Source: Actinomycetes bacterium
Lineage (GTDB): Bacteria; Actinomycetota; Acidimicrobiia; Acidimicrobiales; Acidimicrobiaceae
Assembly: GCA_021810525.1 (NCBI GenBank)
Contig: JAJZIP010000010.1
Location: 3,060-36,436 of the forward strand
Length of the DNA: 33,377 nt
Direction: 5' to 3'
Within the stretch, counting starts at the first letter, position 1. Each line of letters starts with the position of its first letter. Below are positions 369-23,465 of the stretch, piece by piece. The position numbers were made by a program, and so were the translations under genes. The notes beneath the pieces are model-generated. The model made no database searches. It saw only the letters and a list, made by a program, of their open reading frames with translations, and was not told where the DNA came from.

Positions 369-1151
369 ATGACTGCTGAAACGAATACCCAACCCGAAGT
401 CTTGTGGCAAAAGCGCGAAAAGGTTCGGATCATGACTTTGAATAGGCCCCACAAGAAGAACGCCCTCTCGCTCGAAGGCCAGGAGCTACAGTCGCACTAT
501 CTTTTCGAATTTGCCAACGATGACGAAGCTTGGGTTCTCATCATTACTGGAGCAGGAGGCACATTTTCGACAGGGCTCGATCTCACACAGGCGGCAGTCG
601 CAGTGGGTAGAGCAGAACGTCCTCCAGCACTCACTGGACACAATCCGATCGTGACATGGAAGCCGATTATCGCAGCTATCAACGGATACGCTCTGGGTGG
701 TGGCCTGGAACTCGCATTGGCGTGTGATATACGCATTGCAAGTGAGGATGCACGCCTGGGGTTCCCTGAAGTGAAACGCTCCATGATTGCAGGAGCAGGA
801 GGTTGTCAGCGGCTTGCCAGAATTGCTCCGCTCGGAAGTGCTTTTTGGATGCTTTTCACCGGAGACTGGGTCAGCGCCGAGGAGGCCTTTCGTCTTGGGA
901 TTGTTGACAGGGTCGTTTCCGTTGATAATCATCTTCAGGAAGCATTGGATCTTGCCGTCCGCATTTGCGAAAACGGCCCTCTTGCCGTGCGGGCTGCTAA
1001 AGAGGCGGTGTACAGGGGGCTTGATCTTCCTCTCAATGCCGCATTAGTCCAAGATAACCTCATCGCATTTCGAAATCGCCAGTCTAGTGATGCCAAAGAG
1101 GGCCCGGCGGCATTTTTGGAGCACCGAGCGCCGAACTTCAAAGGAATATGA
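369..1151 (+). CDS. Enoyl-CoA hydratase/isomerase family protein (crotonase fold)
   Basis: This 260-residue protein has the normal crotonase length. The oxyanion-hole segments are visible (GAGGTFSTGLDL near residues 61-72, and GYALGGGLELALACD near 106-120). Both acidic residues used by true hydratases are present: Glu114 in GGLE and Glu134 in GFPEVK. A hydratase adding water to an alpha,beta-unsaturated acyl-CoA is therefore more likely than an isomerase or dehalogenase. AGGAG at 357-361 supports the ATG at 369. The stop overlaps the next start (ATGA at 1148-1151), so translation is probably coupled to the second CoA-transferase. With CoA-transferases on both sides and a ring-cleavage block downstream, a cinnamoyl-CoA-type substrate is plausible but not proven. 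Confidence 0.9.
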   Translation: MTAETNTQPEVLWQKREKVRIMTLNRPHKKNALSLEGQELQSHYLFEFANDDEAWVLIITGAGGTFSTGLDLTQAAVAVGRAERPPALTGHNPIVTWKPIIAAINGYALGGGLELALACDIRIASEDARLGFPEVKRSMIAGAGGCQRLARIAPLGSAFWMLFTGDWVSAEEAFRLGIVDRVVSVDNHLQEALDLAVRICENGPLAVRAAKEAVYRGLDLPLNAALVQDNLIAFRNRQSSDAKEGPAAFLEHRAPNFKGI

Positions 1152-2350
1152 AATTGGTTGAGAAGCGCAAAATCATACCTTCACAATCCAGCAATGTACC
1201 AAGTCCTCTTCAAGGACTGCTGGTAGTGGAGGTTGCCGATGAACTAGTGGCTTACTGTGGAAGGCTCTTGGCATCTCTTGGCGCCGAAGTGGTTCTGGTT
1301 GAACCACCGGGCGGTTGTCAGCTTCGCAAAGGACCTGACGAGCAAGCGATTTCAGATATCACGCCTTCATTTGCTTGGCTCCACACCGGAAAGAGTTCGA
1401 TCGTAATCGACCCGAGGAATGATTCTGACTTAGTAGACTTCAAGGCATTAATTGCTAGGGCGGATATAGTATTACAGGGTCCGGGAGACGAGTGGGATCG
1501 GCGAATGACCCTTGCCTGCGAAGGTCTTCCCAACGACAATCCACGTCTAGTTGTTGCATCAATATTGCCATTCGGTTCTACTGGCCCATACCGGAACTAT
1601 CGGTCCACCAAGTCAGTTGACTTCGCCATGAGCGGTCTACTGAACTTATCCGGCAAACCCGAGGAGCCACCAGTGCTTGCTCCGTGTAACCAATCCACAG
1701 TGGTTGCTGGAGCCCAAACGTCAGTAGGAATCCTAATTGCAATAAGAGTTCGCGAACAAACTGGACTGGGTCAATGCGTAGAAGTTTCAGTGCAGGAAGC
1801 CTTCACTGCGCAGGAAAATATAGTATCGAGCTTCACGGGAGATGGCTGGCGAGGCGAGAGAACTGGAAGCCAGCATCGAGTTGCGGCCCCTGGACGCATT
1901 TATCCATGTAAAGACGGGTTCATTCACCTTTTCGTAAGCCCAGTTCAAAAAGGTGCTTGGGACCGACTGTTGGACTGGATGGGAAGTTCCGCTGGAATTT
2001 TATCGCAGGAGGAGTGGTCTAATCCCCGATATCGCCGATCCCACGTGACAGTACTAGATGAAGTGGTTCGAGACTGGACCAAAACTTGGCCAAAACAGGA
2101 CCTCTACGTCGAGGCACAAAAAAGACATATTCCATGTGCTCCAGTGAATTCTATGGCAGATTTTGTAAGAGATCCACAAACTGTTTCAAGGGGTTTCTTT
2201 CAGCAAGCCCGTGACAACGGAGAACCCAGTTACATCTTTCCATCATCCACCATCTTATTGAACGGTGTGAGAATGCACGGCGAGCGGAGGGCTCCGGAAC
2301 TTGGTGTCGACAACTCAACGTATCTGGCAAAATCAAGTCGACCCGACTGA
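1148..2350 (+). CDS. Family III (CaiB/BaiF) CoA-transferase
   Basis: This 400-residue protein is a full-length family III CoA-transferase. The N-terminal part has the usual Rossmann-type start (LLVVEVADELVAYCGRLLAS, then LGAEVVLVEPPGG near residues 46-56), and the catalytic aspartate is most likely Asp158 in KSVDFAMSGLL. The C-terminal region has the typical AQKRHIPCAPVNSMADFVRD stretch. It overlaps the hydratase by four bases. Two CoA-transferases of this family flanking a hydratase could form a heteromeric transferase like BbsEF (benzylsuccinate CoA-transferase), or act on two different acids. The acid substrate cannot be read from the sequence. It would activate a carboxylate without ATP, which would explain why no acyl-CoA ligase is seen in the window. 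Confidence 0.88.
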   Translation: MKLVEKRKIIPSQSSNVPSPLQGLLVVEVADELVAYCGRLLASLGAEVVLVEPPGGCQLRKGPDEQAISDITPSFAWLHTGKSSIVIDPRNDSDLVDFKALIARADIVLQGPGDEWDRRMTLACEGLPNDNPRLVVASILPFGSTGPYRNYRSTKSVDFAMSGLLNLSGKPEEPPVLAPCNQSTVVAGAQTSVGILIAIRVREQTGLGQCVEVSVQEAFTAQENIVSSFTGDGWRGERTGSQHRVAAPGRIYPCKDGFIHLFVSPVQKGAWDRLLDWMGSSAGILSQEEWSNPRYRRSHVTVLDEVVRDWTKTWPKQDLYVEAQKRHIPCAPVNSMADFVRDPQTVSRGFFQQARDNGEPSYIFPSSTILLNGVRMHGERRAPELGVDNSTYLAKSSRPD

Positions 2351-2733
2351 TTAGACCAATGATGGTGACCTCCTAGCCAAACTGAGATATACGCCATTCA
2401 GGTTGAGTGGCCAACAGAAGTCCAGTTTCAGCTCGCCAGATAACTTATGGCATTGATGGCGGTAATTCGTTGTCCGCTCTCGACGATAAGAATGCGGATT
2501 TAACTAACCTTGAATTCATCGCAATGACTCCGCGAAGCTAGATCTTGTCAGATAAATTCACCCAAATAATCATAATTTCATTTGAGATAACTAGTCCAAA
2601 CACCGTGCTTATCGAGCTACGGCCAATTAATTTACAGCCGAAGTTATGTTTGACCCGGTATGAATGTCTTGCTATCCTTACTTTGTAATCAGAATTGTAG
2701 ACAATCTTGATGATTCCTAGGAGGACTCGAAAT
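2351..2733 (+). other. Intergenic region upstream of the ring-cleavage operon
   Basis: This is 383 bases without a convincing gene. The one supportable feature is a sigma70-like promoter near its right end (2650-2678). I see no strong terminator hairpin after the CoA-transferase stop. The AT-rich stretch around 2550-2640 may hold regulator sites, but no clear symmetric operator stands out. Confidence 0.5.
2650..2678 (+). promoter_or_regulatory. Predicted sigma70-type promoter of the DUF6282-galB-galC-ligB block
   Basis: A -35 box TTGACC (2650-2655) and a -10 box TATCCT (2673-2678) are separated by exactly 17 bases. Transcription would start near 2685, giving a leader of about 50 bases before the ATG at 2734. 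Confidence 0.5.
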
Positions 2734-3681
2734 ATGGATCAGCTTCAGAAACAAGTGACGGAACAAACAGAGGAGGTGGAAATTGAACCCACTGACGAAG
2801 CTTGGGAGTCCATAAAAGGTGCATATGACCTTCAGCTGCACGTGGCGCCAGACGTCATGCCGAGACGAATCGACGATATTGATGTCGCTCACGAATTCTT
2901 GAAGCGAGGTCTTTCGGGTTTCGTTCTTAAATCTCACTATTTCATGACAGCCGAACGTGCTGCTGTTGTCACAAAAGCTGTACCAGGCATCAAAGCATAC
3001 GGTGCTGTAACGCTGAACCACAGCATGGGAGGACTGAATCCTGTTGCAGTCGATCTTGCCGGAAGAGCCGGGGCTCGCTTGGTCTGGATGCCCACAGTTG
3101 ATGCTCTAAACGAGACAGCTGGGCGGTCTCCAGACGCAATACATCCACCGTTTTGGGCAACTTTCCAGCGTGAACTCAGTGCAAGAGGTATTTCTCCTGA
3201 TCCCATCACCGTTTTGAACGACAAAGGGGAAATATCAGCCTCAGCGAAGCAGTGCCTGGAAATAATTGCGGAACATAACATGGTGCTTTGTACCGGCCAC
3301 CTGGGTCGCAAAGAAATATTTCCGCTTGTGGACGAGGCCAAGAAGCTTGGCGTGCAAAAGATCGTAGTCACCCATGCTGAATTTCCTTCACAAAACCTTT
3401 CGCAGGGAGAACAATATGAGCTCGCAGCAAGAGGAGCGATCATTGAGCACTGTTTTACTACAACCCATACCAACAAGGCCCCATGGCAGTTGCTGTTTGC
3501 CAATGTTGCCGCTGTTGGACCCGAACGTGTGATCCTCTCAAGCGACTTAGGCCAGCCTTCAAATCCACCTGTATCACTTGGGCTTGCAATCTACGCCCAA
3601 CGATTTCTCGATGCGGGTTTCTCCGCAGCCAATATTCAGTCAATGTTTGTACAAAACCCTGCGAAATTAGTTGAGCACTAA
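2734..3681 (+). CDS. DUF6282 family protein, amidohydrolase-like
   Basis: The protein has 315 residues from the ATG at 2734, which is chosen because AGGAGG sits at 2719-2724, nine bases upstream; earlier TTG/ATG codons at 2707 and 2710 lie in front of this site. It matches the DUF6282 pattern (YDLQLHVAPDVMPR, SGFVLKSHYFMTAERAA, MGGLNPVAVD, LVWMPTVDA), a family resembling metal-dependent TIM-barrel hydrolases. Candidate metal or catalytic residues are His36, the His in CTGHLGRKE, the His in VVTHAEFP, and the Asp in LSSDLGQP. The usual HxH pair reads Gln34-Leu-His36 here, so one expected ligand is replaced. The function of this family is not established. Its place at the head of a 4-oxalomesaconate block suggests a step such as lactone opening or tautomerisation (the role of LigI or GalD elsewhere), which is inference only. 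Confidence 0.8.
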   Translation: MDQLQKQVTEQTEEVEIEPTDEAWESIKGAYDLQLHVAPDVMPRRIDDIDVAHEFLKRGLSGFVLKSHYFMTAERAAVVTKAVPGIKAYGAVTLNHSMGGLNPVAVDLAGRAGARLVWMPTVDALNETAGRSPDAIHPPFWATFQRELSARGISPDPITVLNDKGEISASAKQCLEIIAEHNMVLCTGHLGRKEIFPLVDEAKKLGVQKIVVTHAEFPSQNLSQGEQYELAARGAIIEHCFTTTHTNKAPWQLLFANVAAVGPERVILSSDLGQPSNPPVSLGLAIYAQRFLDAGFSAANIQSMFVQNPAKLVEH

Positions 3682-3719
3682 TCTAACGGGTTCACTGCGG
3701 ACGAAAAGAACGAAGAATA

Positions 3720-3739
3720 GACGAACAATCTAGTTCGTC
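3720..3739 (+). repeat. Inverted repeat between the DUF6282 gene and galB
   Basis: Perfect 7-base arms GACGAAC (3720-3726) and GTTCGTC (3733-3739) flank a 6-base loop. It lies in the 76-base gap just upstream of the galB ribosome binding site (AAGGAG at 3747-3752). There is no T-run after it, so it is more likely an operator or an RNA processing/stability hairpin than a terminator. Confidence 0.45.
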
Positions 3740-3757
3740 CTGTGATAAGGAGACTTA

Positions 3758-4474
3758 ATGAACAAGTCAGTTTTAGTCATCAGCGCACATACAGCAGATT
3801 TCGTTTGGCGTGCGGGTGGAGCGATAGCTGTTGCAAGCGAAGCGGGGCTTAACGTACGCGTGGTCTGTCTTTCATATGGTGAGCGAGGTGAATCAGCAAG
3901 TCTTTGGCGTGAAAATGGCATGACGGTCGATAGAGTGAAGCAGGTGCGTCGCAAAGAAGCGGAGGCTGCTGCCGAAATATTAGGCGCTGAAATTGCCTTT
4001 CTCGATGCCGGTGATTACCCACTCTTGGAAACAACCGAGTTACTAGATGCATTGGTTCGTGAATTTCGTACATTCCGTCCGTCAATTGTATTGACTCACT
4101 CACTGGAAGACCCCTATAACATGGATCATCCCAAAGCAGGCCAACTCGCAATACAGGCGAGGGTTCTAGCACAAGCAGCAGGCTATCCCACGGAGGGAAA
4201 AATTATTGGTACTCCCCCCGTATACCTTTTCGAACCTCATCAGCCTGAGATGTGCAAGTTCCATCCAGATGTGTTCTTGGATATCACGTCAGCATTTGAA
4301 CTCAAACGTAAGGCAATGCAGTGCATGGAAGCCCAAGAGCACCTTTGGAAATACTATACAGAGCTTGCATACCGCCGCGGAGTTCAATCCGTTCGTAATT
4401 CAGGCAGAAACACGATCGAATATGCGGAGGCATTTGAAACTGTTTATCCTTCGGTGGTGGAAGCACTATGGTAG
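3758..4474 (+). CDS. galB: 4-oxalomesaconate hydratase, PIG-L/LmbE-like (GalB type)
   Basis: This 238-residue protein belongs to the PIG-L (LmbE-like) zinc family. The first metal motif, normally AHPDD, reads SAHTADFVWRAGGAI (His11, Asp14), the form I recall for GalB, the 4-oxalomesaconate hydratase of the Pseudomonas putida gallate pathway. A later THSLEDPYNMDHP segment supplies His114, Asp118 and His124. The C-terminal KRKAMQCMEAQEHLW and RGVQSVRNSGRN stretches also look GalB-like rather than like sugar deacetylases. The enzyme would hydrate 4-oxalomesaconate to 4-carboxy-4-hydroxy-2-oxoadipate. AAGGAG sits 6 bases before the ATG. Its stop overlaps the start of the aldolase gene for the next pathway step (4468), which strongly supports the assignment. 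Confidence 0.82.
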   Translation: MNKSVLVISAHTADFVWRAGGAIAVASEAGLNVRVVCLSYGERGESASLWRENGMTVDRVKQVRRKEAEAAAEILGAEIAFLDAGDYPLLETTELLDALVREFRTFRPSIVLTHSLEDPYNMDHPKAGQLAIQARVLAQAAGYPTEGKIIGTPPVYLFEPHQPEMCKFHPDVFLDITSAFELKRKAMQCMEAQEHLWKYYTELAYRRGVQSVRNSGRNTIEYAEAFETVYPSVVEALW

Positions 4475-5187
4475 ACAATCGTGTATATCGATCAATCGAA
4501 CGACCTGACTCTAAGTTAATGGATGAACTCGGGAATTATGGAGTTGCGACAGTCCACGAGTCTCAAAACAAAACCGGTCTCCTGAATTCATATATTCACC
4601 CGATAAGAAATAACTTGTCTATCGCTGGCCCAGCAGTCACGGTTCTTGCACATCCAGGGGATAATTTAATGATTCATGCTGCCATTGCCGTAGCAAGTCC
4701 TGGAGACATCCTGGTTGTCTCGGTTAGTTCCGAAATAGACGACGGAATGTTTGGTGAACTAATGGCTACATCGGCGATCGCACGGGGTATCCGTGGACTC
4801 ATAATCGATGCCGGGGTACGAGACGTAGCAGCACTAAGGGAGATGAACTTCCCGGTATGGTCAAAGGCAATATGCGCGAAGGGTACCGTCAAGTTGCGTG
4901 GAGGATCGGTGAACGTGCCCATAGTGTGTGCTGGCAGATACATATGCCCCGGTGATGCAATTGTTGCCGATGATGACGGAGTCGTTTGTGTGCGGCGCGA
5001 GCATGTTGAACGTGTCATTGACGCAGCGCACGAACGCGAAACACGTGAGGCCAAAGTGCGTGAGCGCTTGAGTAACGGGGAGTTGGGAATGGACTTCTAT
5101 GGACTCTGGGCTCTACTCGATGCGCAAGGAGTATGGGTGGAAGGTCTTGATGCCAGCTCTGTAAATCGTTCTGAGGGAGTGTACTAG
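4468..5187 (+). CDS. galC: 4-carboxy-4-hydroxy-2-oxoadipate (CHA) aldolase / oxaloacetate decarboxylase, RraA-fold
   Basis: This 239-residue protein has the RraA-like fold of class II HMG/CHA aldolases (LigK, GalC, ProA). The substrate-binding sequence is complete: AGPAVTVLAHPGDNLM, then FGELMATSAIARGIRGLIID and GVRD with Arg118-Asp119, the pair that binds pyruvate and the divalent metal in this family. PVWSKAICAKGTVK and ADDDGVVCV match the aldolase branch rather than RNase E inhibitor RraA. It cleaves CHA to pyruvate and oxaloacetate. It overlaps galB by 7 bases and ends two bases before the dioxygenase start, so the three genes are tightly coupled. Confidence 0.88.
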   Translation: MVDNRVYRSIERPDSKLMDELGNYGVATVHESQNKTGLLNSYIHPIRNNLSIAGPAVTVLAHPGDNLMIHAAIAVASPGDILVVSVSSEIDDGMFGELMATSAIARGIRGLIIDAGVRDVAALREMNFPVWSKAICAKGTVKLRGGSVNVPIVCAGRYICPGDAIVADDDGVVCVRREHVERVIDAAHERETREAKVRERLSNGELGMDFYGLWALLDAQGVWVEGLDASSVNRSEGVY

Positions 5188-5189
5188 GT

Positions 5190-6182
5190 GTGGCCACACT
5201 AACTCGTGGGTTTGGAACCTCTCACAGCCCGTTGCTTAGCATTCCGCCTGGGTTATGGAGTGAGTGGACGAAATTTCGGGATTATCCAAATCGGGCTTTA
5301 CTCGATAATCAGGGCATTGTTCGGACGTACCCAGAGTTGGCTGCGACTGTGCAAGATCGATTTTTTAGCGAGATCCAACCAGAGGTTATTCTGGAAAGAT
5401 ACTCTAGCTGCCAGCGTGCTATTGGGCGCTTGGCAGCGGAGATAGATAGAAGTGGTATCGACACACTTATCATTCTTGGTGATGATCAGGTGGGTGAGGT
5501 GTTTGACCCTTCGAACATGCCAGCGATCTACATCTACTGCGGTGAAGAGGTACTGAACAGGCATTGTGATCCTTCTCCAGACCTTCCAGATGCAGTCAAC
5601 ATTGGTAGGTGGGGTTCAGCTGGCGATAGGGACCGCCATTATCCTGTTGCCCAGGAATTGGCAGTCCACCTTGTATCTCAACTGGTTGAGGGAGGATTTG
5701 ACATCGCTCAGGGTAAAGAATTGCCGAAAGAAAAGAACATAGGTCATGCCTTTGGTTTCGTAATTAACCGACTAATCCCACATCGTGCCTTACCTATCGT
5801 ACCGATAATGATCAATAGTTACTTTCCACCCAACCAACCAACACCGATGCGCTGTTTCAGCCTGGGCCAAGCGCTGCGTAGGGCAGTCGAATCCTTCCCC
5901 CCGTCATGGAAAGTGGGCATTATGGCCTCTGGAGGATGGAGTCATTTCGTGGTCGACGAAGAAATCGATAGACTCACACTTTCAGCGCTTTCCGAAAAAC
6001 GTACTCGCGACCTCATCAATTTGCCCATTGAACGCCTCAACTCAGGCACTTCTGAAATCCGTAATTGGATCGCGGCTGGGGCAGCATTCGAAGATCTTGA
6101 GTTAGAGTGGATTGACTATATTCCCTGCTATCGCTCGGAAGCTGGAACGGGATTGGGTGCAGCGTTTGCGGTTTGGCGCTAG
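5190..6182 (+). CDS. Class III extradiol ring-cleavage dioxygenase, LigB-type catalytic subunit
   Basis: This 330-residue protein belongs to the LigB family of non-haem Fe(II) ring-opening dioxygenases (protocatechuate 4,5-dioxygenase beta subunit, gallate dioxygenase). It starts with GTG at 5190, preceded by GAGGGAG at 5173-5179. His12 in GTSHSPLL matches the first iron ligand of LigB. His198 in RLIPHRALPIVPIMINSY fits the catalytic base, and Glu257/Glu258 in WSHFVVDEEID the acidic ligand. The second histidine ligand, normally in an NDH motif, falls on LGDDQVGEVFD, so that position reads Gln100. No LigA-type alpha domain is encoded beside it. Neighbouring galB and galC point to a gallate- or protocatechuate-like diacid-yielding substrate. 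The Gln suggests a divergent subgroup, so the substrate stays open. Confidence 0.8.
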   Translation: MATLTRGFGTSHSPLLSIPPGLWSEWTKFRDYPNRALLDNQGIVRTYPELAATVQDRFFSEIQPEVILERYSSCQRAIGRLAAEIDRSGIDTLIILGDDQVGEVFDPSNMPAIYIYCGEEVLNRHCDPSPDLPDAVNIGRWGSAGDRDRHYPVAQELAVHLVSQLVEGGFDIAQGKELPKEKNIGHAFGFVINRLIPHRALPIVPIMINSYFPPNQPTPMRCFSLGQALRRAVESFPPSWKVGIMASGGWSHFVVDEEIDRLTLSALSEKRTRDLINLPIERLNSGTSEIRNWIAAGAAFEDLELEWIDYIPCYRSEAGTGLGAAFAVWR

Positions 6183-6401
6183 ATCAGGCACCGTTTGAAA
6201 TAAGCGATCTCCCATAACTGCGAGATCAACGGCTAGAGATTTGCCAGTCCACACTGAATTCGCTGCACGACTGAACCAATGAGACAATGCAATCACGTAC
6301 GCCCAGACGTGTGGCGTCAACGAGAGACCGCATGAAAGCAACCTGACTTCGTGAAATCATAACTGCTTTTTTCTGTTGCTCAGAACTTTTAGAAGCATGA
6401 C

Positions 6402-6430
6402 TTGACAGAATCAGCACGGCAAGTAATAAT
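6402..6430 (+). promoter_or_regulatory. Predicted strong sigma70 promoter of the ammonia-lyase gene
   Basis: A consensus -35 box TTGACA (6402-6407) and a -10 box AATAAT (6425-6430) are separated by 17 bases. Start of transcription would be near 6437. The TTG that could serve as an upstream start codon for the lyase is part of the -35 box, which argues for starting translation further downstream. Confidence 0.6.
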
Positions 6431-6452
6431 TGTTGGCAAGGTTGGCGACAAT

Positions 6453-8114
6453 ATGTACTACACCATTCCTTTAGGGAATTGCGCCGTGACCACTGAAATG
6501 GGGGCTGTAGTGGATCGTACTGTACTACTTGATGGGGAAAACCTGACACTTGAAGAGGTCGATGCGGTTGCCCGCCATGGTGCTGCAGTAGAACTTCACC
6601 CGAATCCCAAGGTGCGGGAACGGATCCAGGCTTCATGCGATCTTAATGAAAGAATGCTGCAAGCAGGGTTACCGGTATATGGTGTTACAACCGGTTTTGG
6701 CGACTCGGTCAATCGCCAAGTGGGTCTAGACAAGGCCTACCGCGTTCCGGAATTCGAAATAAGAAAGAATGGCTGTGGTCGGGGGCCTTACCTTCCGGAG
6801 CAGCAAGCTCGCGCAGTTGTCCTTGCGAGAACAAACTGCCTAGTTCGGGGGAATTCAGCAGTGCGTCTCAAGCTGATTGAGAACCTCTTAGCACTGCTAA
6901 ATAGGCGCATTACGCCTTGCATCAGAGAAATCGGATCCGTGGGAGCCAGTGGTGATCTAATCCCAGGCTCATACATCGCAGCCACGCTCATGGGAACCCG
7001 CGAAGTTTATTATAACGGTGACATAGTTCCTGCCATCGACGCCCTTACCGCCGAGGGTATCGACCCTTTAGTACTAGGTCCCAAAGAGGGACTGGCTATG
7101 ACGAATGGTACCCAGTTCATGACCGGGCTGGGTTCACTCGTTGCCTGGGATGCAGCTGAAGTAGCCCGAGTCGCAGATATATGTTCCGCAATGGCAGTTG
7201 AGGTACTCGGTGGTGTCACTGGACCATTTCACCCATTTTTACAACGACAAAAACCTCACCCTGGACAATCGCAATCTGCAGAACACATCCTTCGCTTACT
7301 TGAAGGAAGTTCGTTGGCACGTGATTACAGCAAAGTTGTCCAGGGATTAGGAACAATGGAAAAAGGATTCCGAATCTTGCCTATTCGGATCCAGGATCGT
7401 TACTCATTGCGATGCGCACCTCAGTTTATTGGCGCTCTTTATGACTGTATTGAATGGGTCGATCGCTGGCTTAAAGTGGAGCTGAACTCAAGTAATGATA
7501 ACCCTCTTTATGATGTCGAAACTGGAACCGTCCATAGTGGAGGGAACTTTACTGGCGGGCATGTAAGCCTGGCAATGGACACTTTACGTACAGCATTGGC
7601 CAGTGTGGGGGATCTGATTGATCGCCAGTTTGCGCAGTTGGTAGATGATAAATTCAGCAATGGGCTCCCTCCCGGGCTTATCCATCCGTTGCCACTAGGG
7701 CATGTCGACGAGGGCATCTATCATGGTTTTAAAGGCATGCAGCTTCTAATGTCTTCCTTGGTTGCTGAAGCTCTCCAGCGCTGCGTTCCCATGACTATAT
7801 TTTCACGCTCCACCGCCGCACACAACCAAGACAAGGTGAGCATGGGAACAACATCAGCACGGATAAGTCGCGAAGTTCTTGCGCTGGTGGAAGAGGCGCT
7901 TGCCGTGCATCTGATCGGATTATGTCAGGCTGCTGACATAAGGGGTGCGAAAGGATTGGGAAGAACCAGACCTGTTTACGAGTTGGTTAGGTCTGTAAGT
8001 GCATACGTCGAGACCGACCGTGAACTTGAAGAAGACATCTCATCTGTACTCGCTTTAATTCGTTCGCGACGAATTACAGGTTCTGTTTCTGGATTGCTTA
8101 GTAACGCTTCATGA
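6453..8114 (+). CDS. MIO-dependent aromatic amino acid ammonia-lyase family protein (HAL/PAL/TAL superfamily)
   Basis: The protein has 553 residues from ATG 6453; GTG 6486 and ATG 6498 are alternatives. The frame is open back to a TTG at 6402, but that codon lies in a promoter -35 box. The MIO cofactor triad Ala-Ser-Gly is in GSVGASGDLIPGSY (about residues 165-167), the catalytic tyrosine in PVYGVTTGFGDS (Tyr76), and the PAL-like HNQDKVSMG segment is present. The superfamily removes ammonia from L-His, L-Phe or L-Tyr to give an acrylate, or acts as an aminomutase. The substrate-selectivity pair (SH in histidine lyases, FL in phenylalanine lyases, HL in tyrosine lyases) appears as Lys105-Asn106 in my alignment by eye. 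No other hut genes are nearby, so histidine use is unlikely; a polar or phenolic amino acid is more plausible. Confidence 0.85.
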   Translation: MYYTIPLGNCAVTTEMGAVVDRTVLLDGENLTLEEVDAVARHGAAVELHPNPKVRERIQASCDLNERMLQAGLPVYGVTTGFGDSVNRQVGLDKAYRVPEFEIRKNGCGRGPYLPEQQARAVVLARTNCLVRGNSAVRLKLIENLLALLNRRITPCIREIGSVGASGDLIPGSYIAATLMGTREVYYNGDIVPAIDALTAEGIDPLVLGPKEGLAMTNGTQFMTGLGSLVAWDAAEVARVADICSAMAVEVLGGVTGPFHPFLQRQKPHPGQSQSAEHILRLLEGSSLARDYSKVVQGLGTMEKGFRILPIRIQDRYSLRCAPQFIGALYDCIEWVDRWLKVELNSSNDNPLYDVETGTVHSGGNFTGGHVSLAMDTLRTALASVGDLIDRQFAQLVDDKFSNGLPPGLIHPLPLGHVDEGIYHGFKGMQLLMSSLVAEALQRCVPMTIFSRSTAAHNQDKVSMGTTSARISREVLALVEEALAVHLIGLCQAADIRGAKGLGRTRPVYELVRSVSAYVETDRELEEDISSVLALIRSRRITGSVSGLLSNAS

Positions 8115-8231
8115 GGAATCCCACTTCATGCATTTCTTGAGTGGAATCCGCAGCGAACACCTCTATTCAACTGACTGGCTGCAACAGGAACGTCGCAAAG
8201 AAACAACCCACACCCTAGGAAGGGATAATAC

Positions 8232-9392
8232 GTGAGTCTGGCAGGACAATATGCAATTGTTGGCGTAGGCGACACCAAAGTTGGGCGCGTACCCGAATAT
8301 AGTAAGACGGGATTAGCGCTCCTAGCTGCGGCAAGGGCTATCGATGACAGTGGCCTTAGTAGAGATGACGTAGATGGTGTCCTGACCTCCCAAATGGGTG
8401 GGACATTCATATATAGCCTTGAGATCGCGACGAAACTTGGCATTCAGCCAAGATATACGACGGTTATGGAGCTTGGCGGAGCTACATCTGTGTGTATGGC
8501 TCAGCAAGCTGCTGTGGCGATAGAAGCTGGACTAGCCAATGCTGTCTTGTGTGTTCACGCCCAGAAACAGGCCACAGAGGGACAGAGGCCTCGTCATGGT
8601 GGAGCATTGCTACGAGGATTCGATGAATTTGACCGCCCATTTGGACATCCGGGAGCTACCGCAGTACACGCACTTGCCGCACGTCGACATATGCATTTGT
8701 ATGGTTCGACGAGCGAAGACTTCGCCCGTATCGCAGTAGCGGAGCGCCTACACGCATCACTCAATGCAAATGCTCAACGCCGAGAACCAATAACCCTAGA
8801 GGACCATCAGGCCTCGCGATGGGTAATAGAGCCATTTCGCCTCCTCGATTGCTGCCAAGTCAGTGACGGGGCTGGCGCATTTATAGTCACGAGCGCCAAG
8901 AGAGCTCGCAATCTCCAAAAACCTCCGGTTTACTTGCTTGGGTTCTCCCAATTCCATCCTCATCGCTTCATATCAGATCAAAACGCTGACCTGACTTCAA
9001 CGGGAGCGGTAGTTTCGGGACCTAGAGCGTTCGCCATGGCGGGTCTAAGCCCCAAAGATGTGGACGCCGCAGAGCTATACGACTGTTTTACATATGTCGT
9101 ATTGACCGAACTCGAAGACTACGGCTTTTGTGGGAAAGGCGAGGGGCGTGAGTTCATTAAAGATGGCCGAATCGAAATTGGAGGCAGCCTTCCTGTTAAT
9201 ACTCATGGAGGACTATTGTCACAAGGCCACGTTGAAGGAATGATGCATGTGGTCGAGGCAGTTAGACAGCTTCGAGGAAACGAGGTTGAGCCGGCACGGC
9301 AGGTAGAGGGTGCGAAAGTGGTTCTCGTATCGGGGCACGGAGGACAAATGAGCACACACGGGTCTTTAATCCTAGGGACCGAAAGACCGTGA
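8232..9392 (+). CDS. Thiolase-like protein (SCP2/Ltp2-type lipid-transfer family)
   Basis: This 386-residue thiolase-fold protein starts with GTG at 8232, preceded by AGGAAGGGA at 8217-8225. It has the family landmarks YAIVGVGDTKVGR, VMELGGATSVCMAQQAAVAI, AAELYDCFTYVVL, and VNTHGGLLSQGHVEGM, whose His corresponds to the thiolase CoA-site histidine. The C-terminal catalytic cysteine motif of degradative thiolases (CxG) reads SGHGGQMSTHG instead. Such proteins always travel with a DUF35 protein, and in steroid side-chain degradation the pair (Ltp2 with its DUF35 partner) is a retro-aldolase. I therefore prefer an acyl-CoA retro-aldolase or non-classical thiolase over beta-ketothiolase. Acting after the enoyl-CoA hydratase, it could release an aromatic aldehyde and acetyl-CoA. 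Confidence 0.82.
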   Translation: MSLAGQYAIVGVGDTKVGRVPEYSKTGLALLAAARAIDDSGLSRDDVDGVLTSQMGGTFIYSLEIATKLGIQPRYTTVMELGGATSVCMAQQAAVAIEAGLANAVLCVHAQKQATEGQRPRHGGALLRGFDEFDRPFGHPGATAVHALAARRHMHLYGSTSEDFARIAVAERLHASLNANAQRREPITLEDHQASRWVIEPFRLLDCCQVSDGAGAFIVTSAKRARNLQKPPVYLLGFSQFHPHRFISDQNADLTSTGAVVSGPRAFAMAGLSPKDVDAAELYDCFTYVVLTELEDYGFCGKGEGREFIKDGRIEIGGSLPVNTHGGLLSQGHVEGMMHVVEAVRQLRGNEVEPARQVEGAKVVLVSGHGGQMSTHGSLILGTERP

Positions 9393-9406
9393 TCAAGAAA
9401 CAATAA

Positions 9407-9865
9407 ATGACCGCGAAACATTCTTTAAAAGGAAGCGAATTGGTAGATATGACCTCAACCAACAGACCGTTACCTAAACCAGATGAGGATTCAGACGAGT
9501 TCTGGCGATATTGCTCATTGCATGAACTGCGCATGCAACGCTGCAATACTTGTGGGCATTTTCGTTTTAGGCCCTCGGTGATATGTCCAAACTGCCTTTC
9601 GACCGAGGCAAGCTGGGAACGATTATCCGGTACTGCCCAGATTCACAGCTTTGTGGTCGTACATCAGCAAATGGTCGTTGGATATGATCAGGTTCCATAT
9701 GTCATAGCGTTAGTAGACCTCGATGAAGGGCCAAGAATGACGACAAGAATCGTCGATTGTGAAGCCAACGACCTGAGCATTGGTTTGCAAGTTCAAGTCA
9801 CATTTGAAGATTACACCGATGACATATCGTTACCGGTATTTGTTCCGTCTAAATCCCGCGTGTGA
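9407..9865 (+). CDS. Zn-ribbon/OB-fold (DUF35) partner of the thiolase-like protein
   Basis: This 152-residue protein has a rubredoxin-like zinc ribbon with Cys46, Cys49, Cys60 and Cys63 (CNTCGHFRFRPSVICPNC), followed by an OB-fold (WERLSGTAQIHSFVVVHQ and later strands). This is the standard DUF35 architecture. These proteins bind the adjacent SCP2/Ltp2-type thiolase and help form the acyl-CoA site. The gene lies 14 bases after the thiolase stop. An in-frame ATG at 9449 with AAAAGGA upstream is an alternative start and would leave the fold intact. Confidence 0.87.
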   Translation: MTAKHSLKGSELVDMTSTNRPLPKPDEDSDEFWRYCSLHELRMQRCNTCGHFRFRPSVICPNCLSTEASWERLSGTAQIHSFVVVHQQMVVGYDQVPYVIALVDLDEGPRMTTRIVDCEANDLSIGLQVQVTFEDYTDDISLPVFVPSKSRV

Positions 9866-9912: not shown

Positions 9913-10926
9913 GTGATGTCCGCAAAAAATAGGGTCGATGTGAGGCGACCCAAGAAGGTTGCTATATTGGGTGGCCTAGCAGCGGCGACCATGCTCATGG
10001 CTGCATGCTCTTCCACCTCAAGTACTACATCGACTTCAACAACCGCACCGTCTACGACGACAACGTCTGTTTCTCTGTCATCACTACTTCCCGCTAGTAT
10101 AAAGTCCTCTGGAATCATCAAGAATGGAACACCAGAGGCAAATCCACCGCTAATATTTCTCACACCAAATCAAAGTCTCACTGGAATTGACTACGAGCTG
10201 AGCAATGCGGTCGGAAAAGAACTTGGAGTCAAGTTTCAGTATACGCAGATACCTTTCCCTGGTGACATCCCGGCAATACTGTCTGGGCGGATCGACACGA
10301 GCTGGGGGATCTTTAGTGACACTCCGCAGCGTGAATCAGAGGTGACTTTTGTCGACTATATCATCGATGGCGTAACGTTTCTTACAAAGTACGGCAATCC
10401 CGATAATATAAGCACGCTCTCCGATCTCTGTGGAAAATCAGTGGGAGCCACCCAAGGGGCAATCGAGAGTGCCTTTATTACGCAGCTCACGACGACCTAT
10501 TGCACACCCAATGGAAAGCCAGCTATTACTCCGGCACTTTATAGCAGTGCAGCCGCATCGTTGCTCGCACTTACCAGTGGACGGGTTGCCGCAATTGTGC
10601 ATCCTGGTGCAGCCAGTCAGTACATTGCGAGTACCGCAGGCGGCGGTAAGACCTACCAAATCCTTTTCCCAGGTCAACTCTTTCTTGCCAATTATGGTGG
10701 TATAGGTGTTGCCAAAGGCGATACCCAATTAGCCAATGCCTTGGTTACCGCGTTAAGAGCCCTCCAAGCAAACGGTACTTACGGTAAAATCCTTGCAAAA
10801 TACGGATTAAGCCGCATGGCGCTTACCGCAAATCAGATTTCTCTAAATGCGGCGTCGAAAATACCGCTGACACCAGCACAGCAAAAAATCTACGGTACCA
10901 GCTCGCCCTACATAACTGCAAAATAG
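9913..10926 (+). CDS. Amino acid ABC transporter substrate-binding lipoprotein
   Basis: This is a periplasmic-type binding protein of the polar amino acid family (SBP_bac_3). AGGAGG at 9902-9907 precedes GTG 9913 and ATG 9916, and either could start the protein. A signal peptide with lipobox LMAAC ends at Cys32 (Cys31 from the ATG), followed by a long Ser/Thr tail typical of actinobacterial lipoproteins. The mature part shows SGIIKNGTPEANPPLIF, GIDYELSNAVGKELGVKFQY and an internal GRIDTSWGIFSDTPQRE segment, matching the family's Dxx(D/E) amino acid-binding layout. The gene is followed by its permease and ATPase. The lyase, amidohydrolase and PLP aldolase alongside suggest an amino acid or amino-acid derivative as ligand. 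Confidence 0.87.
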   Translation: MMSAKNRVDVRRPKKVAILGGLAAATMLMAACSSTSSTTSTSTTAPSTTTTSVSLSSLLPASIKSSGIIKNGTPEANPPLIFLTPNQSLTGIDYELSNAVGKELGVKFQYTQIPFPGDIPAILSGRIDTSWGIFSDTPQRESEVTFVDYIIDGVTFLTKYGNPDNISTLSDLCGKSVGATQGAIESAFITQLTTTYCTPNGKPAITPALYSSAAASLLALTSGRVAAIVHPGAASQYIASTAGGGKTYQILFPGQLFLANYGGIGVAKGDTQLANALVTALRALQANGTYGKILAKYGLSRMALTANQISLNAASKIPLTPAQQKIYGTSSPYITAK

Positions 10927-10939
10927 TTAGTACATTGGC

Positions 10940-11908
10940 ATGGGTGACATGAAAATGTTGGGACAACGGGGGCAGAAGCTCATCGAATCGAGTCAAGAAA
11001 AACGAACTCATAACACAGCCTCTGATGAATCTCGCAAATCTTACGAAGAGATGCCAGTCGGTTCCCGGCGAAAATATGGTCAGATCCTGAGTGGCATCAT
11101 AGCAACGATACTTATCGCAGCAGTAATGGTTTCGCTCTACCGAAACCATTACATCAATCACAGCACCATTGCACATTACCTATTCAGTGCGCCTATTTTG
11201 AGTGGGCTTAGGGTCACCATTGAATTGGCTATTGCTGCCGAAGTTGTTGGCATCGTTTTTGGAATAGTATTGGCGCTGGCGCGGCAATCGCACAATCGTG
11301 TTTGGGCCATTTTGAGCTGGCTTTATATCTGGGGATTCAGAGGCACTCCTCTACTAGTTCAAATCATATTCTGGGGCAATATAGCTCTCCTCTTTCCTCA
11401 CTTAGCAGTGAGGATACCTGGCACTTCGATTACCTTTTGGTCAGTACACACTAACAGCGTAGTTACACCATTTCTGGCCGCGATACTGGCCCTGGGATTG
11501 AACGAGGCTGCATACCAAGCGGAAGTGTTTCGGGGAGGACTACTGGCTGTAGGACAAGGGCAACGTGATGCGGCACTTGCACTTGGTATGCATAACTGGC
11601 AGGTCAACAGGTATATTGTCTTCCCTCAAGCTCTTCGCATAGTTATTCCACCAACTGGAAATCAATTCATATCGTTGTTAAAGGCGAGTTCCCTAGTGTC
11701 AGTAATTGCGGGAGGCGATCTCCTCAGTCAAGTTGAGAACATCTATGCTACAAATTACAAGACAATCGAGTTGCTAATAGTGGCAGCAATTTGGTATATC
11801 ACGCTTACTTCCGTCACCTATGTCGGCCAGCACTTCCTCGAAGTTCGTGCAAGCCGAGGTGCTCCAGCCACAAAACTAGGAAATCCGATGACTCGGGGCT
11901 TGGCATGA
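10940..11908 (+). CDS. Amino acid ABC transporter permease (HisM/GlnP family)
   Basis: This 322-residue inner membrane permease has a long hydrophilic N-terminus (about 50 residues), a membrane segment at GIIATILIAAVMVSL, and a second block of membrane helices starting with VTIELAIAAEVVGIVFG. The family loop that docks the ATPase (EAA motif) is clear: LNEAAYQAEVFRGGLLAVG followed by QGQRDAALALGM. FRGTPLLVQIIFWG is the usual HisM/GlnP signature. It probably forms a homodimer, since only one permease gene is present. The start is uncertain; ATGs at 10949 and 10955 are possible. The stop overlaps the ATPase start (ATGA at 11905). Confidence 0.9.
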   Translation: MGDMKMLGQRGQKLIESSQEKRTHNTASDESRKSYEEMPVGSRRKYGQILSGIIATILIAAVMVSLYRNHYINHSTIAHYLFSAPILSGLRVTIELAIAAEVVGIVFGIVLALARQSHNRVWAILSWLYIWGFRGTPLLVQIIFWGNIALLFPHLAVRIPGTSITFWSVHTNSVVTPFLAAILALGLNEAAYQAEVFRGGLLAVGQGQRDAALALGMHNWQVNRYIVFPQALRIVIPPTGNQFISLLKASSLVSVIAGGDLLSQVENIYATNYKTIELLIVAAIWYITLTSVTYVGQHFLEVRASRGAPATKLGNPMTRGLA

Positions 11909-12711
11909 AACAACAAGAGAGCACACCCTTCGACCTGGGTAATGGATCTCAATCTCTACTGAGTGTTCATAAAGTTCTAAAACGTTTTGGTGAGAAGACG
12001 ATTCTCGATGAAGTTTCATTCGAAGTAGAAAAAGGCCAAGTATTTTGTCTGCTGGGACCATCTGGCTCAGGGAAGAGCACATTGCTGAGATGCATTGACC
12101 ATTTGGAACCAATCCATGGAGGCGAAATCAGGCTCAATGGTGAACGGCTCGGTTATCGCGAACGAAGGGGCAAACTCGTCGCGATGAATGACCGAGAGGC
12201 GTCGAAAATGAGAATGCATATTGGCATGGTCTTTCAGCACTTCAACTTATTTCCCCATTTGACTGCTCTTGAAAATGTGGCCTTGGCACCGAGACAGGTC
12301 AAGAAGTTGAATAAATCCGACGCTGAAGCTCGGGCGCAAGAAGTCCTTGCAACAGTCGGCTTGGCTGAGTTTTTCTCGTCCTTTCCAAGTCAGTTATCGG
12401 GCGGCCAGCAGCAGCGAGTGGCGATTGCCCGCGCAGTCGTCATGGAACCCTCGGTTGTTCTGTTTGACGAGCCAACCTCAGCATTAGACCCCGAGTTGGT
12501 TGGAGAAGTTCTTCTAGCAATGAAACGGCTAGCTGAGAGTGGAATGACCATGATCATAGTTAGCCATGAGGTTGGCTTCGCGAGAGATGTCGGAGACATG
12601 GTCGCCTTAATGGAGTGTGGTCGGATTGTTGAGTCGGGGCCACCGCACGAGGTATTCGGAAAAGGAGAGGGCTTCGCTCGAACACGCGAATTCGTGAAGC
12701 GTATCATCTAG
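11905..12711 (+). CDS. Amino acid ABC transporter ATP-binding protein (GlnQ/HisP family)
   Basis: This 268-residue ATPase starts at the ATG overlapping the permease stop; the frame is open further upstream, but that part lies inside the permease gene. It has Walker A GPSGSGKST (about 51-59), Q-loop MVFQHFNLFPHLTALENV, signature LSGGQQQR, Walker B VVLFDEPTSALDPE, and H-loop IIVSHEVGFA. The FQHFNLFPHLT wording is characteristic of polar amino acid importers. It energises uptake with the two preceding genes. The amidohydrolase gene begins 15 bases after its stop. Confidence 0.93.
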   Translation: MKQQESTPFDLGNGSQSLLSVHKVLKRFGEKTILDEVSFEVEKGQVFCLLGPSGSGKSTLLRCIDHLEPIHGGEIRLNGERLGYRERRGKLVAMNDREASKMRMHIGMVFQHFNLFPHLTALENVALAPRQVKKLNKSDAEARAQEVLATVGLAEFFSSFPSQLSGGQQQRVAIARAVVMEPSVVLFDEPTSALDPELVGEVLLAMKRLAESGMTMIIVSHEVGFARDVGDMVALMECGRIVESGPPHEVFGKGEGFARTREFVKRII

Positions 12712-12726
12712 AGAAAGGCCGATTCG

Positions 12727-13959
12727 ATGTCTGACCACAATCCTGAATCCCTAATCATTGTTGAGGCAAAAAGGATTCTCTTTGAGGCTGAAGCAGCCGT
12801 TCTAGAAAATAGTGCCGTGCTGGTAGATGGTGAAACCATCTTGGCAGTCGATACTCCAGACAAACTTATGAATATGAGCAACAGGTCGATCCCTCGAATT
12901 CATCTAGGTGATCTAACACTGCTACCAGGGATGATCGATTGTCACGTGCATCTTGGCTATGAAGAGGCTCAAGACCGCAGGTCTCTCATGGAGGGGAGCA
13001 CTCAACAAGCACTTCTCACCGCGTTGATGCTGTACAATGCCAGAAAGCTACTGAGAACAGGCGTCACTACCATCAGAGAACTTGGGTCCAGTGGCCAGCT
13101 TGGATCAACCGTGAGAGCTGTGATTTCTAAGGGGTGGAGCCCGGGACCTCGCGTTCTTGCTGCAAATGAACCCCTGACTACCACGGGAGGCCATGCATGG
13201 TTCCTTGGAGGTGAGTGTGACAGCGTTGAAGAGATAAGAAAGGCAGTTCGAAATCGTCATAAATCCGGTGCGGACTTAGTAAAGATCATGGTCACGGGTG
13301 GCGGGTTGACTTCTGGATCAGTACCTTGGCTCGCTCAGTTCTCCCAGCAGGAAGTTGACACAGCAGTAGAAGAGGCATCAAGACTTGGAATGCCAGTGGC
13401 TGCACATGTTCACGGTACTGAGGGAATAGCAATCGCAGTTAACTCGGGTGTGACAACACTTGAACATTGCACGTGGATGGGCGAAGGTGGCAGAATAGGC
13501 AATCATTTGGATACCGACGTAGTGCAGGAAATCGTAGATAGAGGTATCTTCGTATGCCCAACCGCCAGTTCACGTTGGGGAACGATGGACTCTGAACGTA
13601 GAGACTCAAAGATCCGAACGGTCGCAATCATGCATGAAGCTGGCGTCCGCCTTATTGCTGGCACTGATGCTGGAATCGAGCATGTACCCCATGACAGCTA
13701 TGCGCAAGGACTAAGTTGGCTGCAGCGGTGCGGCATGTCGACGTTAGACGTCTTGGCTGCAGCCACCTCCAACGCTGCCGAATCATGTGGAATTGCCAAT
13801 ATCACTGGAACTCTTGCCGTAGGCAAGGTCGCAGACATGATCGCAGTAACAGGAGATCCACGTGAAGACCTAGAGGTTCTCAGCAAACCCGTGTGGGTCA
13901 TGGCCCGAGGCAAACAAGTGCTGGACCATAACCTGGTAATCTTTCGACCCCAATTATGA
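12727..13959 (+). CDS. Metal-dependent amidohydrolase (prolidase/imidazolonepropionase-like subfamily)
   Basis: This 410-residue amidohydrolase has a beta-sandwich plus TIM-barrel layout. Metal-site residues can be followed in order: His73 and His75 in [10 protein letters not shown], Lys186 in [13 protein letters not shown] (the expected carboxylated lysine), His227/His229 in [10 protein letters not shown], His247 in TTLEHCTW, and Asp314 in IAGTDAG. Together they describe a binuclear zinc site. This subfamily includes Xaa-Arg/Xaa-Lys dipeptidases and enzymes that hydrolyse N-acyl amino acids; the exact substrate is not predictable. The coupling to an amino acid importer upstream and a PLP aldolase downstream (ATGA overlap at 13956) suggests release of an amino acid from an amide. 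Confidence 0.85.
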
Positions 13960-15020
13960 ACAGAGGAACCACATCTCCAGTCCAAATAGACCTTATAAGT
14001 GACACTGCCACCCGACCAAGCGCGGGCATGAGAGCGGCTATGGCTAGTGCCGAGGTGGGAGACGAACAGCGAGGTGAGGACCCCACTGTAAACGCCTTGT
14101 GCGACCGAGTAGCCGAGTTGCTTGGTAAAGAAGCCGCAGTGTTCTTACCTTCTGGTACCATGTGCAATCAAATTTCGATTGCAGTCCATTGTCAGCCAGG
14201 TGACGAAGTAATTATGGACGCTCTAGCTCACCCAGTTCACTTCGAAGCGGGAGGACCCTCGGCGCTCGGAGGCGTAATGATTCGGTGCGTTGAAGGACGA
14301 CATGGCGTATTTTCCGCCGACCAGGTCCAAAGCTCTGTCAGAATGCCCGATAGGCACGCACCACGCAGCGCTTTGGTGTGGATCGAACAAACGGTAAACC
14401 TCACAGGCGGCCACTGTTGGCAACTTAATGAAATACGCGAAGTCCTCGACGCCGCTCGACGCTTCAACCTCGCTACACACATGGATGGAGCTCGCCTTTT
14501 CAATGCGGTGGTGGCCACAAATACCTCAGCTTCTGAATTCTCTGAAGGATTTGACTCAGTTTGCATAGACCTGACAAAAGGGCTCGGTGCTCCTGTTGGA
14601 GCTGTGCTGGCAGGCAGCACTTCATTCATAAACGATGCCTGGCGAATAAAGCAACGGTGGGGAGGCGCGATGCGCCAAGCGGGAATCATTGCCGCAGCCG
14701 GGCTTTACGCACTGGAGCACAATATTCAGCGACTTCAGCAGGACCACGAAAACGCCGCTTTGTTCGCGCAAATTGTTGCGTCTCACCCGCAGGTGGAGTT
14801 GAGTGTTGATTCAGTAGACACAAATATCGTCATTCTTGATGTTGCACATACTGACTTTGATGCGTTACTCTGTGGGCGGTATTTAATGGACAAGCATGGA
14901 ATCAGAATCGGAACCTTAGGCCCTCGAAAAATAAGGGTGGTCACCCACCTAGATATTACAAATGAAGACGTTCGCCTTGTGGCGGAGGCGTTCTTAGAAT
15001 TCCTATCCAATATTGGGTGA
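13956..15020 (+). CDS. Threonine aldolase family PLP enzyme (beta-hydroxy amino acid / phenylserine aldolase type)
   Basis: This 354-residue fold-type I PLP enzyme belongs to the L-threonine aldolase/GntG family. The opening [20 protein letters not shown], the active-site [11 protein letters not shown] stretch, the cofactor aspartate Asp177 in [11 protein letters not shown] and the Schiff-base lysine Lys208 in [14 protein letters not shown] are all in place. The family splits beta-hydroxy-alpha-amino acids into glycine and an aldehyde, and several members prefer phenylserines. An aromatic aldehyde dehydrogenase of the benzaldehyde type is encoded about 2.6 kb away, which makes an arylserine substrate attractive but unproven. 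It overlaps the amidohydrolase stop by four bases and converges on the GntR gene, whose stop is only 9 bases away. Confidence 0.87.
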
Positions 15021-15029
15021 AACGTCGCC

Positions 15030-15824
15030 TCACGGTGCAAAGTCAGCCAGCTGAAAGTTATCCTGGCCATTCCTAAGGGACTTCGCTACGCTCCTTAGAT
15101 GGAATTGAACAGCTTTTTCGGCTGCATCTGGGTTACCGCTACAGATTGCCTCAACCATCGCCTCGTGCTCGGACAAAGAATGATCAGGTCGTCCCGGGGT
15201 GAGAATTGTTCTGTACTGGAATCTCACGCTTTGTGCCTTCAACATGTCTACCAAGTTACGAACGGTTTCATGTCCTGAACATTCAATTATGAAACGGTGT
15301 AACCTGGCATTGCCATCAGAGTACCCAAGCAAATCTCCCTCTTTGTGGCGGATCCGCATCTCTTCGAGGATTGCTCTTAACGATTCTCCCTGTTGAGCAG
15401 TAATTTTTTCTGCTGCCTTACGAGCTGCGAGCCCCTCTAGTACCATGCGAACCTCAATAATTTCATAGGCCTCATCCTCACTAATCAAACGGACACGTGC
15501 TCCCCGATTTGCCTCCCGAATAACGAGCCCCTCTTGCTCAAGCCTGGCTAGTGCAGTCCTAACGACCGAGCGGCCTACGCCCAGCTTTTCCACTAATTCC
15601 GACTCGACAAGGCGCTCATTCGGATGATGCTTACCACTAATTATCGCCTCTCTAAGCAGCAGATATCCATGTTCTCCACCGTTTCCTCTCACCGGTCGAA
15701 AGATCTCTGCTGCACGTTGCGAAACTTGAGCGTCCTCGATTGATTGAGATTCAAGAGAGTCCGACAAAGGCAACCGCTTCGTGCCGACGGATTTGGCGCT
15801 CGAACTTTTAGACTTTTTAGCCAT
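15030..15824 (-). CDS. GntR family transcriptional regulator, FadR/FCD subfamily
   Basis: This 264-residue regulator has a variable basic N-terminus of ~50 residues, a winged helix (LREAIISGKHHPNERLVESE to ANRGARVRL, about 56-115, with recognition-helix segment LGVGRSVVRTAL), and a C-terminal FCD effector domain (about 120-250) with candidate metal ligands in HRFIIECSGH and LSEHEAMVEA. A GAGGAAAGGG site precedes the ATG. FCD proteins bind carboxylic acids or aromatic acids and usually repress nearby catabolic genes. It is the last gene of a minus-strand run (tctCBA, aldehyde dehydrogenase, ETF) and is the only regulator seen in the window, so it is the first candidate for the GTCGAC-type operators described here. 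Confidence 0.92.
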   Translation of the reverse strand: MAKKSKSSSAKSVGTKRLPLSDSLESQSIEDAQVSQRAAEIFRPVRGNGGEHGYLLLREAIISGKHHPNERLVESELVEKLGVGRSVVRTALARLEQEGLVIREANRGARVRLISEDEAYEIIEVRMVLEGLAARKAAEKITAQQGESLRAILEEMRIRHKEGDLLGYSDGNARLHRFIIECSGHETVRNLVDMLKAQSVRFQYRTILTPGRPDHSLSEHEAMVEAICSGNPDAAEKAVQFHLRSVAKSLRNGQDNFQLADFAP

Positions 15825-20859: not shown

Positions 20860-20861
20860 GT

Positions 20862-21506: not shown

Positions 21507-21517
21507 TTTTGACCTCC

Positions 21518-23415: not shown

Positions 23416-23465
23416 CTTGCTATATTCCTTTCCATTCACTTTCCATAACCTAACTATTCCCACTT

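Follow-up and report, generated by a model that had tools for sequence, protein, structure and literature searches.

A conserved actinobacterial gene cluster that may degrade a polar-ring aromatic amino acid by a new combination of catabolic steps

Introduction

In the biosynthetic starter pathway of enterocin, the phenylalanine ammonia-lyase (PAL) EncP is followed by a coenzyme A (CoA) ligase, a hydratase and a thiolase. Hydroxycinnamates are degraded through a CoA ligase and then either a hydratase-lyase or a beta-oxidation-like removal, as with the cou and pip genes of Rhodococcus (PMC12753220). In the steroid retro-aldolase CtSal, the Tyr and the Cys of a YDCY motif are catalytic in retro-aldol cleavage, and SCP-2 thiolases have the motif HDCF (PMC12329534). 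Here, we analyse a gene cluster in 33,377 nucleotides of DNA from an uncultured actinobacterium of the Acidimicrobiaceae (the window, G000:C53:3060-36436, whose right edge is where the 36.4 kb contig stops; the draft genome measures 3.57 Mb), in which an aromatic amino-acid ammonia-lyase gene is found together with genes of the kinds used in CoA transfer, side-chain cleavage and ring opening. An earlier note on this DNA had proposed a complete route from an aromatic amino acid or hydroxycinnamate to pyruvate and oxaloacetate.

Conservation of the gene set

Gene families were called by Pfam and NCBIfam profile matches to the open reading frames (ORFs) of the window. All ORFs and families named in the earlier note were found, mostly with the expected catalytic residues, and its core idea stands, strengthened by a second genome, by the residues of the aldolase and by the pairing of the CoA-transferases. 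Gene content, key residues and conservation in the second genome can be read directly from the DNA. This genome (G179), which belongs to the same order and a different family, carries on one strand and in this order the genes for DUF6282 (72% identity to the window), a GalB-type hydratase (71%), a 4-carboxy-4-hydroxy-2-oxoadipate (CHA) aldolase (LigK, 63%), a LigB-type protein (60%), a homologue of the heme-oxygenase-like dimetal oxygenases (HDO/TENA, 81%), an aldehyde dehydrogenase (57%), a fused electron-transfer flavoprotein (ETF, 55%), a CoA-transferase, an enoyl-CoA hydratase (71%), a second CoA-transferase, a GntG-type aldolase dependent on pyridoxal phosphate (PLP; 41%) and the ammonia-lyase (77%). 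For the CoA-transferase subunits, identity is 59% for the one without a catalytic Asp (CaiB1) and 61% over 112 residues for the catalytic-type one (CaiB0), compared as a partial gene only. The HDO/TENA protein is the best conserved among the shared genes, and the GntG-type aldolase is the least alike.

Since 12 genes recur together in G179, their clustering is not due to chance, and the position of the aldehyde dehydrogenase gene inside the main run there, on the same strand as the others, ties it independently to the cluster. In G179 no more than ~65 bases of contig follow the lyase match, and in the window the thiolase gene starts 117 bases past the lyase, so that the window is the only source for the membership of the thiolase/DUF35 pair. 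Four genes conserved in both clusters, those for DUF6282, HDO/TENA, the fused ETF and the PLP aldolase, had been omitted from the earlier note.

Among 397 genomes of the order, only the window genome and G179 gave a lyase match at E < 1e-110, and of 198 genomes G179 alone had a LigB-type protein at 60% identity. A sample of 395 genomes from the class, evidently without G179, yielded no further HDO protein. A contig search with the LigB-type protein gave one sole match, a short contig of the metagenome-assembled Actinomycetes bacterium FK2.bin13, which has DUF6282, GalB, LigK and LigB in the same order at 93-95% identity and nothing beyond. This rarity, together with the shared content, suggests that the gene set is maintained as a whole and may also have been transferred in this form.

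Side-chain genes

Coordinates are those of the window, and genes lie on the forward strand unless stated otherwise. The ammonia-lyase gene (6402-8114; PF00221, 512 bits; start codon uncertain) encodes, as had been claimed, an enzyme of the 4-methylideneimidazole-5-one (MIO) type, and it has the full catalytic residue set: the triad is A182-S183-G184, and Y93, N235, Y334 and R337 are invariant in the alignment. Its best solved relatives are a tyrosine aminomutase, AdmH and a cyanobacterial PAL. Substrate choice in such enzymes is governed by a residue pair, represented by His89 in the tyrosine ammonia-lyase (TAL) RsTAL and by residues 137-138 in PAL numbering (PMC9002059). This pair is Lys122-Asn123 in the window and in G179, and Phe-Leu or Tyr-His in relatives from other genomes. 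After the MIO loop (DLIPL), a Leu is replaced by Gly189, a change common to G179 and not present in relatives from other genomes. As read from the alignment, the pair and Gly189 favour a ring that is larger and polar or anionic, and they make plain Phe or Tyr unlikely; a plain Phe, Tyr or hydroxycinnamate substrate is not supported. The neighbourhood of the closest plasmid-borne lyase, from Pseudonocardia (55% identity), was dropped as a guide to the substrate because of its biosynthetic-looking genes and the Phe-Leu pair of a PAL. Relatives with 47-49% identity are widely held by another family of the phylum (L045 8935-10632, L049 3484-5094), and the two aligned members have Phe-Leu.

Two family III CoA-transferase genes (both PF02515) flank the enoyl-CoA hydratase gene. 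Of CaiB0, only the 3' end (3-350) lies in the window; the body is upstream on the same contig (C53), interrupted near L022 3050-3060 by a run of N where the frame is unreadable. It has the catalytic Asp in a PDYVVG motif, and its best solved match is 9fn0_B, a subunit of benzylsuccinate CoA-transferase. CaiB1 (1148-2350, 226 bits) has Thr184 at the position of the catalytic Asp and matches best the other subunit of the same enzyme, 9fn0_A. Since only one subunit has the Asp and each matches a different 9fn0 chain, they probably form one heteromeric enzyme of the BbsEF type rather than two transferases, in agreement with the proposed loading of CoA by transfer and not by ligation. The enoyl-CoA hydratase, a crotonase (369-1151; PF00378, 170 bits), has both catalytic Glu, E114 and E134, as expected from its earlier naming.

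The thiolase-fold protein (8232-9392) has the motif Y283-D-C285-F (YDCF, 283-286) and a Gly at the position of the nucleophilic Cys, and the gene for its DUF35/ChsH2-C partner (9407-9865; PF01796 and PF12172) begins 14 bases downstream. The protein strongly matches both Ltp2 (6ok1) and 9myr, the latter carrying the motif YDCY. Judged by these residues, retro-aldol cleavage and not thiolysis is well supported as the predicted reaction, as the earlier note had said. The window genome also contains two paralogous sets of CoA-transferase, YDCF thiolase and DUF35 genes with hydantoinase-like neighbours (L088 5412-8202, L089 4371-7157). The aldehyde dehydrogenase (17657-19171, reverse strand; PF00171, 458 bits) has the catalytic Cys289 and Glu255.

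Ring-opening genes

The GalB-like protein of the PIG-L family (3758-4474) matches the 4-oxalmesaconate hydratase 5cgz over its full length with 295 bits, the next best match having 49 bits, which supports its naming as a GalB-type hydratase. The putative CHA aldolase of the LigK/PcmE kind (4468-5187) passed the cut-off of the NCBIfam model PRK09262 (314.9 bits, cut-off 179) and fell below that of TIGR02798 (285.2 bits, cut-off 304.5), so this assignment holds by the first model and not by the second.

The next gene (5190-6182; PF02900, only 48 bits) encodes a homologue of the LigB-type class III extradiol dioxygenases, placed in a subfamily that we call GDDQ. Its model is nearest to the gallate dioxygenase DesB (3wku; Z 29.7, root-mean-square deviation 2.3, 253 residues) and also matches LigAB, which upholds the fold proposed earlier. 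The reference iron site consists of His12, His61 and Glu242 in LigB, with His195 as the catalytic residue; in the window protein His12, His252 and Glu289 are retained, and Gln100 stands at the position of His61. The subfamily nevertheless appears conserved enough to be functional. Another LigB of the window genome, which adjoins a LigA-like match, retains the His (SDH). A second LigB of the GDDQ type in this genome (L040 1329-2315, G000:C13) adjoins a PF04909 amidohydrolase (L040 225-1328) and an ABC transporter of the SsuBC/NMT1 type.

DUF6282 (2707-3681; PF19799; likely true start ~2734) is a predicted metal enzyme of the amidohydrolase fold: its AlphaFold2 model (pLDDT 87) matches the amidohydrolase superfamily with Z ~21, and the first His of the metal site is Gln in both clusters. 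A specific function could not be assigned from Foldseek or VIA-align, which returned broad superfamily matches only.

Proposed route

From these families we infer the substrates, the order of the steps, the ring hydroxylation and the roles of DUF6282, the fused ETF and the HDO protein. The MIO lyase would strip ammonia from the amino acid to give an aryl acrylate, which the paired family III subunits would load with CoA by transfer, in the manner of BbsEF and without an ATP-dependent ligase. The crotonase would hydrate the product to 3-aryl-3-hydroxypropionyl-CoA, the thiolase-fold/DUF35 pair would cleave this to an aryl aldehyde and acetyl-CoA, and the aldehyde dehydrogenase would yield the aryl carboxylate. 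If the aryl acid is protocatechuate, the dehydrogenase could instead oxidise a ring-opened semialdehyde. Unless the ring is already at the level of a catechol or pyrogallol, it would be brought there, perhaps by the HDO protein, before the LigB-type enzyme opens it. The GalB-type enzyme would hydrate 4-oxalmesaconate or a tautomer, DUF6282 may act on an isomer, lactone or ester thereof, and the CHA aldolase would release pyruvate and oxaloacetate, end products that fit the presence of these two last enzymes. A side feed may come from the GntG-type aldolase, which could form aryl aldehyde from beta-hydroxy amino acids.

We give about an even chance to the reading that the gene set catabolises, through these steps, an aromatic amino acid with a polar or anionic ring substituent, most likely of the di- or trihydroxyphenylalanine type. 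The more specific proposal of an undescribed route that mineralises such an amino acid with a Lys-Asn lyase, BbsEF-like ATP-free CoA loading, DUF35-partnered retro-aldol cleavage, hydroxylation by an HDO-type oxygenase and a Gln-ligated LigB-fold dioxygenase that opens the ring, with pyruvate and oxaloacetate as end products, is put forward only tentatively and is rather doubtful as a whole.

The HDO-type protein (22654-23475, reverse strand; PF14518) is, by its family, the sole candidate oxygenase in the cluster besides LigB. The ligand set of HDO dimetal oxygenases comprises three His and three carboxylates (PMC13108848). The protein matches CADD/4-aminobenzoate synthase weakly, and in a weak pairwise alignment E116, H127, H214, D218 and H221 are candidates for five of the six CADD ligand positions, the third carboxylate aligning with an Asn.

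Several observations weigh against the proposed route. The lyase fails the signature of both PAL and TAL, having neither Phe-Leu nor His-Leu at positions 137-138 of PcPAL. The Gln at the position of His61 is present in all seven aligned GDDQ members, so one of two His ligands is gone throughout and ordinary extradiol activity cannot be assumed. No canonical ring hydroxylase was found in the window or in the G179 cluster, and FAD monooxygenases are located elsewhere in both genomes, so the route cannot be called complete. The fused ETF (15861-17660, reverse strand; PF01012 twice, PF00766) has no acyl-CoA dehydrogenase partner in the set, and a candidate tautomerase of the PrpF/GalD family lies outside the cluster in both genomes. 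Finally, the thiolase/DUF35 pair was not seen in the G179 cluster as far as its contig reaches, and the closest G179 thiolase, elsewhere in the genome, has ~31-32% identity and the true-thiolase motif HDCF.

Alternative explanations

The window genes lie in two facing runs, the forward one ending with the PLP aldolase at 15020 and the reverse one comprising aldehyde dehydrogenase, fused ETF, TctABC and HDO/TENA. From CoA-transferase to PLP aldolase, most genes of the forward run overlap or are closely spaced, with wider gaps ahead of DUF6282 (356 bases) and on either side of the lyase (219 before, 117 behind), so that transcription may proceed in two or three units instead of a single one. The gap ahead of DUF6282 would suit two adjacent modules without a common intermediate, a side-chain module (lyase, CoA-transferase, hydratase, retro-aldolase and aldehyde dehydrogenase) and a ring module (DUF6282, GalB, CHA aldolase and GDDQ-LigB) for another aromatic acid taken up via TctABC. 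The position of TctABC between aldehyde dehydrogenase and HDO agrees with this, as does the occurrence of GDDQ-LigB with RraA aldolases and no adjoining lyase on plasmids of Rhodococcus, Bradyrhizobium and Polymorphobacter. In G179, however, both sets are interleaved on one strand, with HDO, aldehyde dehydrogenase and ETF between the ring genes and the CoA and lyase genes, and without TctABC, and we consider two separate modules unlikely, if quite conceivable.

Instead of a benzene diol, the ring might be a heterocycle or of the aminophenol type. GDDQ-LigB would then use its Gln site on rings of this sort, and the product would be handled by DUF6282 or another amidohydrolase. RidA-type enzymes are known in aminomuconate deamination, and the neighbours of plasmid-borne GDDQ-LigB relatives include amidohydrolase, RraA and RidA genes, as well as FAD or P450 oxygenase genes. 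PydA of a mimosine degrader has been placed in PF02900 (PMC7356986), and the lyase pocket changed to Lys-Asn with Gly189 points in the same direction. Against this stand the strong matches of GalB and CHA aldolase to the gallate/protocatechuate branch and the closeness of the LigB-type model to DesB, which leave such rings improbable.

If the PLP aldolase were the main entry, it would cleave beta-hydroxy aromatic amino acids into an aryl aldehyde plus glycine, with a side function left for the lyase arm. The window enzyme (13956-15020) is well above the curated cut-off of NF041359 (364 bits, cut-off 230), and its G179 homologue lies between the CoA-transferase and lyase genes. The two aldolases, with 41% identity, are nevertheless less alike than every other shared gene, and the conserved CoA-transferases, hydratase and lyase would be left unexplained; we give this entry little probability. 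A biosynthetic lyase, or an aminomutase, in an operon making an aromatic compound instead of degrading one, is very improbable. The closest curated lyase model (BagA/FevW) does come from natural-product clusters and the Pseudonocardia relative from a biosynthetic-looking one, but the latter has Phe-Leu instead of Lys-Asn, and catabolism is indicated by the uptake transporters together with the genes for ring-opening-type, hydratase and CHA aldolase proteins.

Other genes of the window

The extension of the forward run to 15020 had also been omitted from the earlier note. It begins 47 bases after DUF35 with an ATP-binding cassette (ABC) transporter of the polar amino-acid type, consisting of solute-binding protein, permease and ATPase (9913-12711; PF00497, PF00528 and PF00005), a proximity that we count in favour of the proposed route. 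It is followed by a prolidase-like amidohydrolase, possibly a dipeptide or amide hydrolase (12727-13959; PF01979; 249 bits to NF051886, under the cut-off). This family-3 amino-acid transporter and the amidohydrolase would provide the amino acid.

On the reverse strand, a GntR/FCD regulator (15030-15824; PF00392, PF07729) lies next to the fused ETF, and a TctABC-type carboxylate transporter (19279-22537; PF01970, PF03401) has a middle ORF without a Pfam match that is TctB-like by position only. A second TctC-like binding protein (26212-27300) adjoins an enzyme dependent on thiamine pyrophosphate (23962-25713), and a Fer4 and NrfD membrane pair lies at the contig end (31505-33179). Upstream of the window, just before the CoA-transferase gene, a PF04909 amidohydrolase (L022 864-1835, C53) may belong to the operon.

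Comparison with known systems

In the open-access literature, we found no work joining lyase, thiolase, DUF35 and hydroxycinnamate and, among the papers listed, no described cluster with a lyase and a gallate dioxygenase, in line with the earlier note, to which no such cluster was known. The combination is real and conserved, and as a pathway it is probably new, the individual kinds of catabolic step being known. If the proposed route is right, amino-acid deamination, CoA transfer, retro-aldol chemistry and ring opening would be united in one gene set, the DUF35-partnered retro-aldolase would gain a role in aromatic catabolism, and the uncharacterised LigB subfamily GDDQ and DUF6282 would be given a testable class of substrates.

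The enterocin starter pathway resembles the window in that a bacterial lyase is followed by CoA-dependent shortening of the side chain, but it is biosynthetic and thiolytic, yields benzoyl-CoA and has no ring cleavage. With hydroxycinnamate catabolism (Fcs/Ech, and the Rhodococcus cou and pip genes; PMC12753220) the window shares C2 removal, from aryl-acrylyl-CoA to aryl aldehyde or acid, whereas it differs in the ammonia-lyase entry, a CoA-transferase instead of a ligase and a separate retro-aldolase partnered by DUF35. The benzylsuccinate CoA-transferase BbsEF likewise has two family III subunits with the catalytic Asp in only one, each window subunit matching a different 9fn0 chain, but in the window the crotonase gene separates the subunit genes and toluene-activation genes are absent. 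The steroid retro-aldolases Ltp2-ChsH2 and Sal-Shy have in common with the window protein the Tyr of YDxF, the Cys as in Sal, the lack of a nucleophilic Cys and the adjoining DUF35; here, however, the cluster has no steroid genes, the hydratase is a crotonase and not MaoC, and Tyr344 of TcLtp2 is replaced by His333. The lower pathway of gallate and protocatechuate 4,5-cleavage (GalA-DesB, GalB, LigK) shares with the window a GalB-type hydratase, probably a CHA aldolase, and the LigB fold, in a window protein that is closest to DesB. This protein, however, has a Gln where a His would bind iron and lacks a LigA domain, GalD is absent from the cluster, and the ring genes are joined to a side-chain module for an amino acid.

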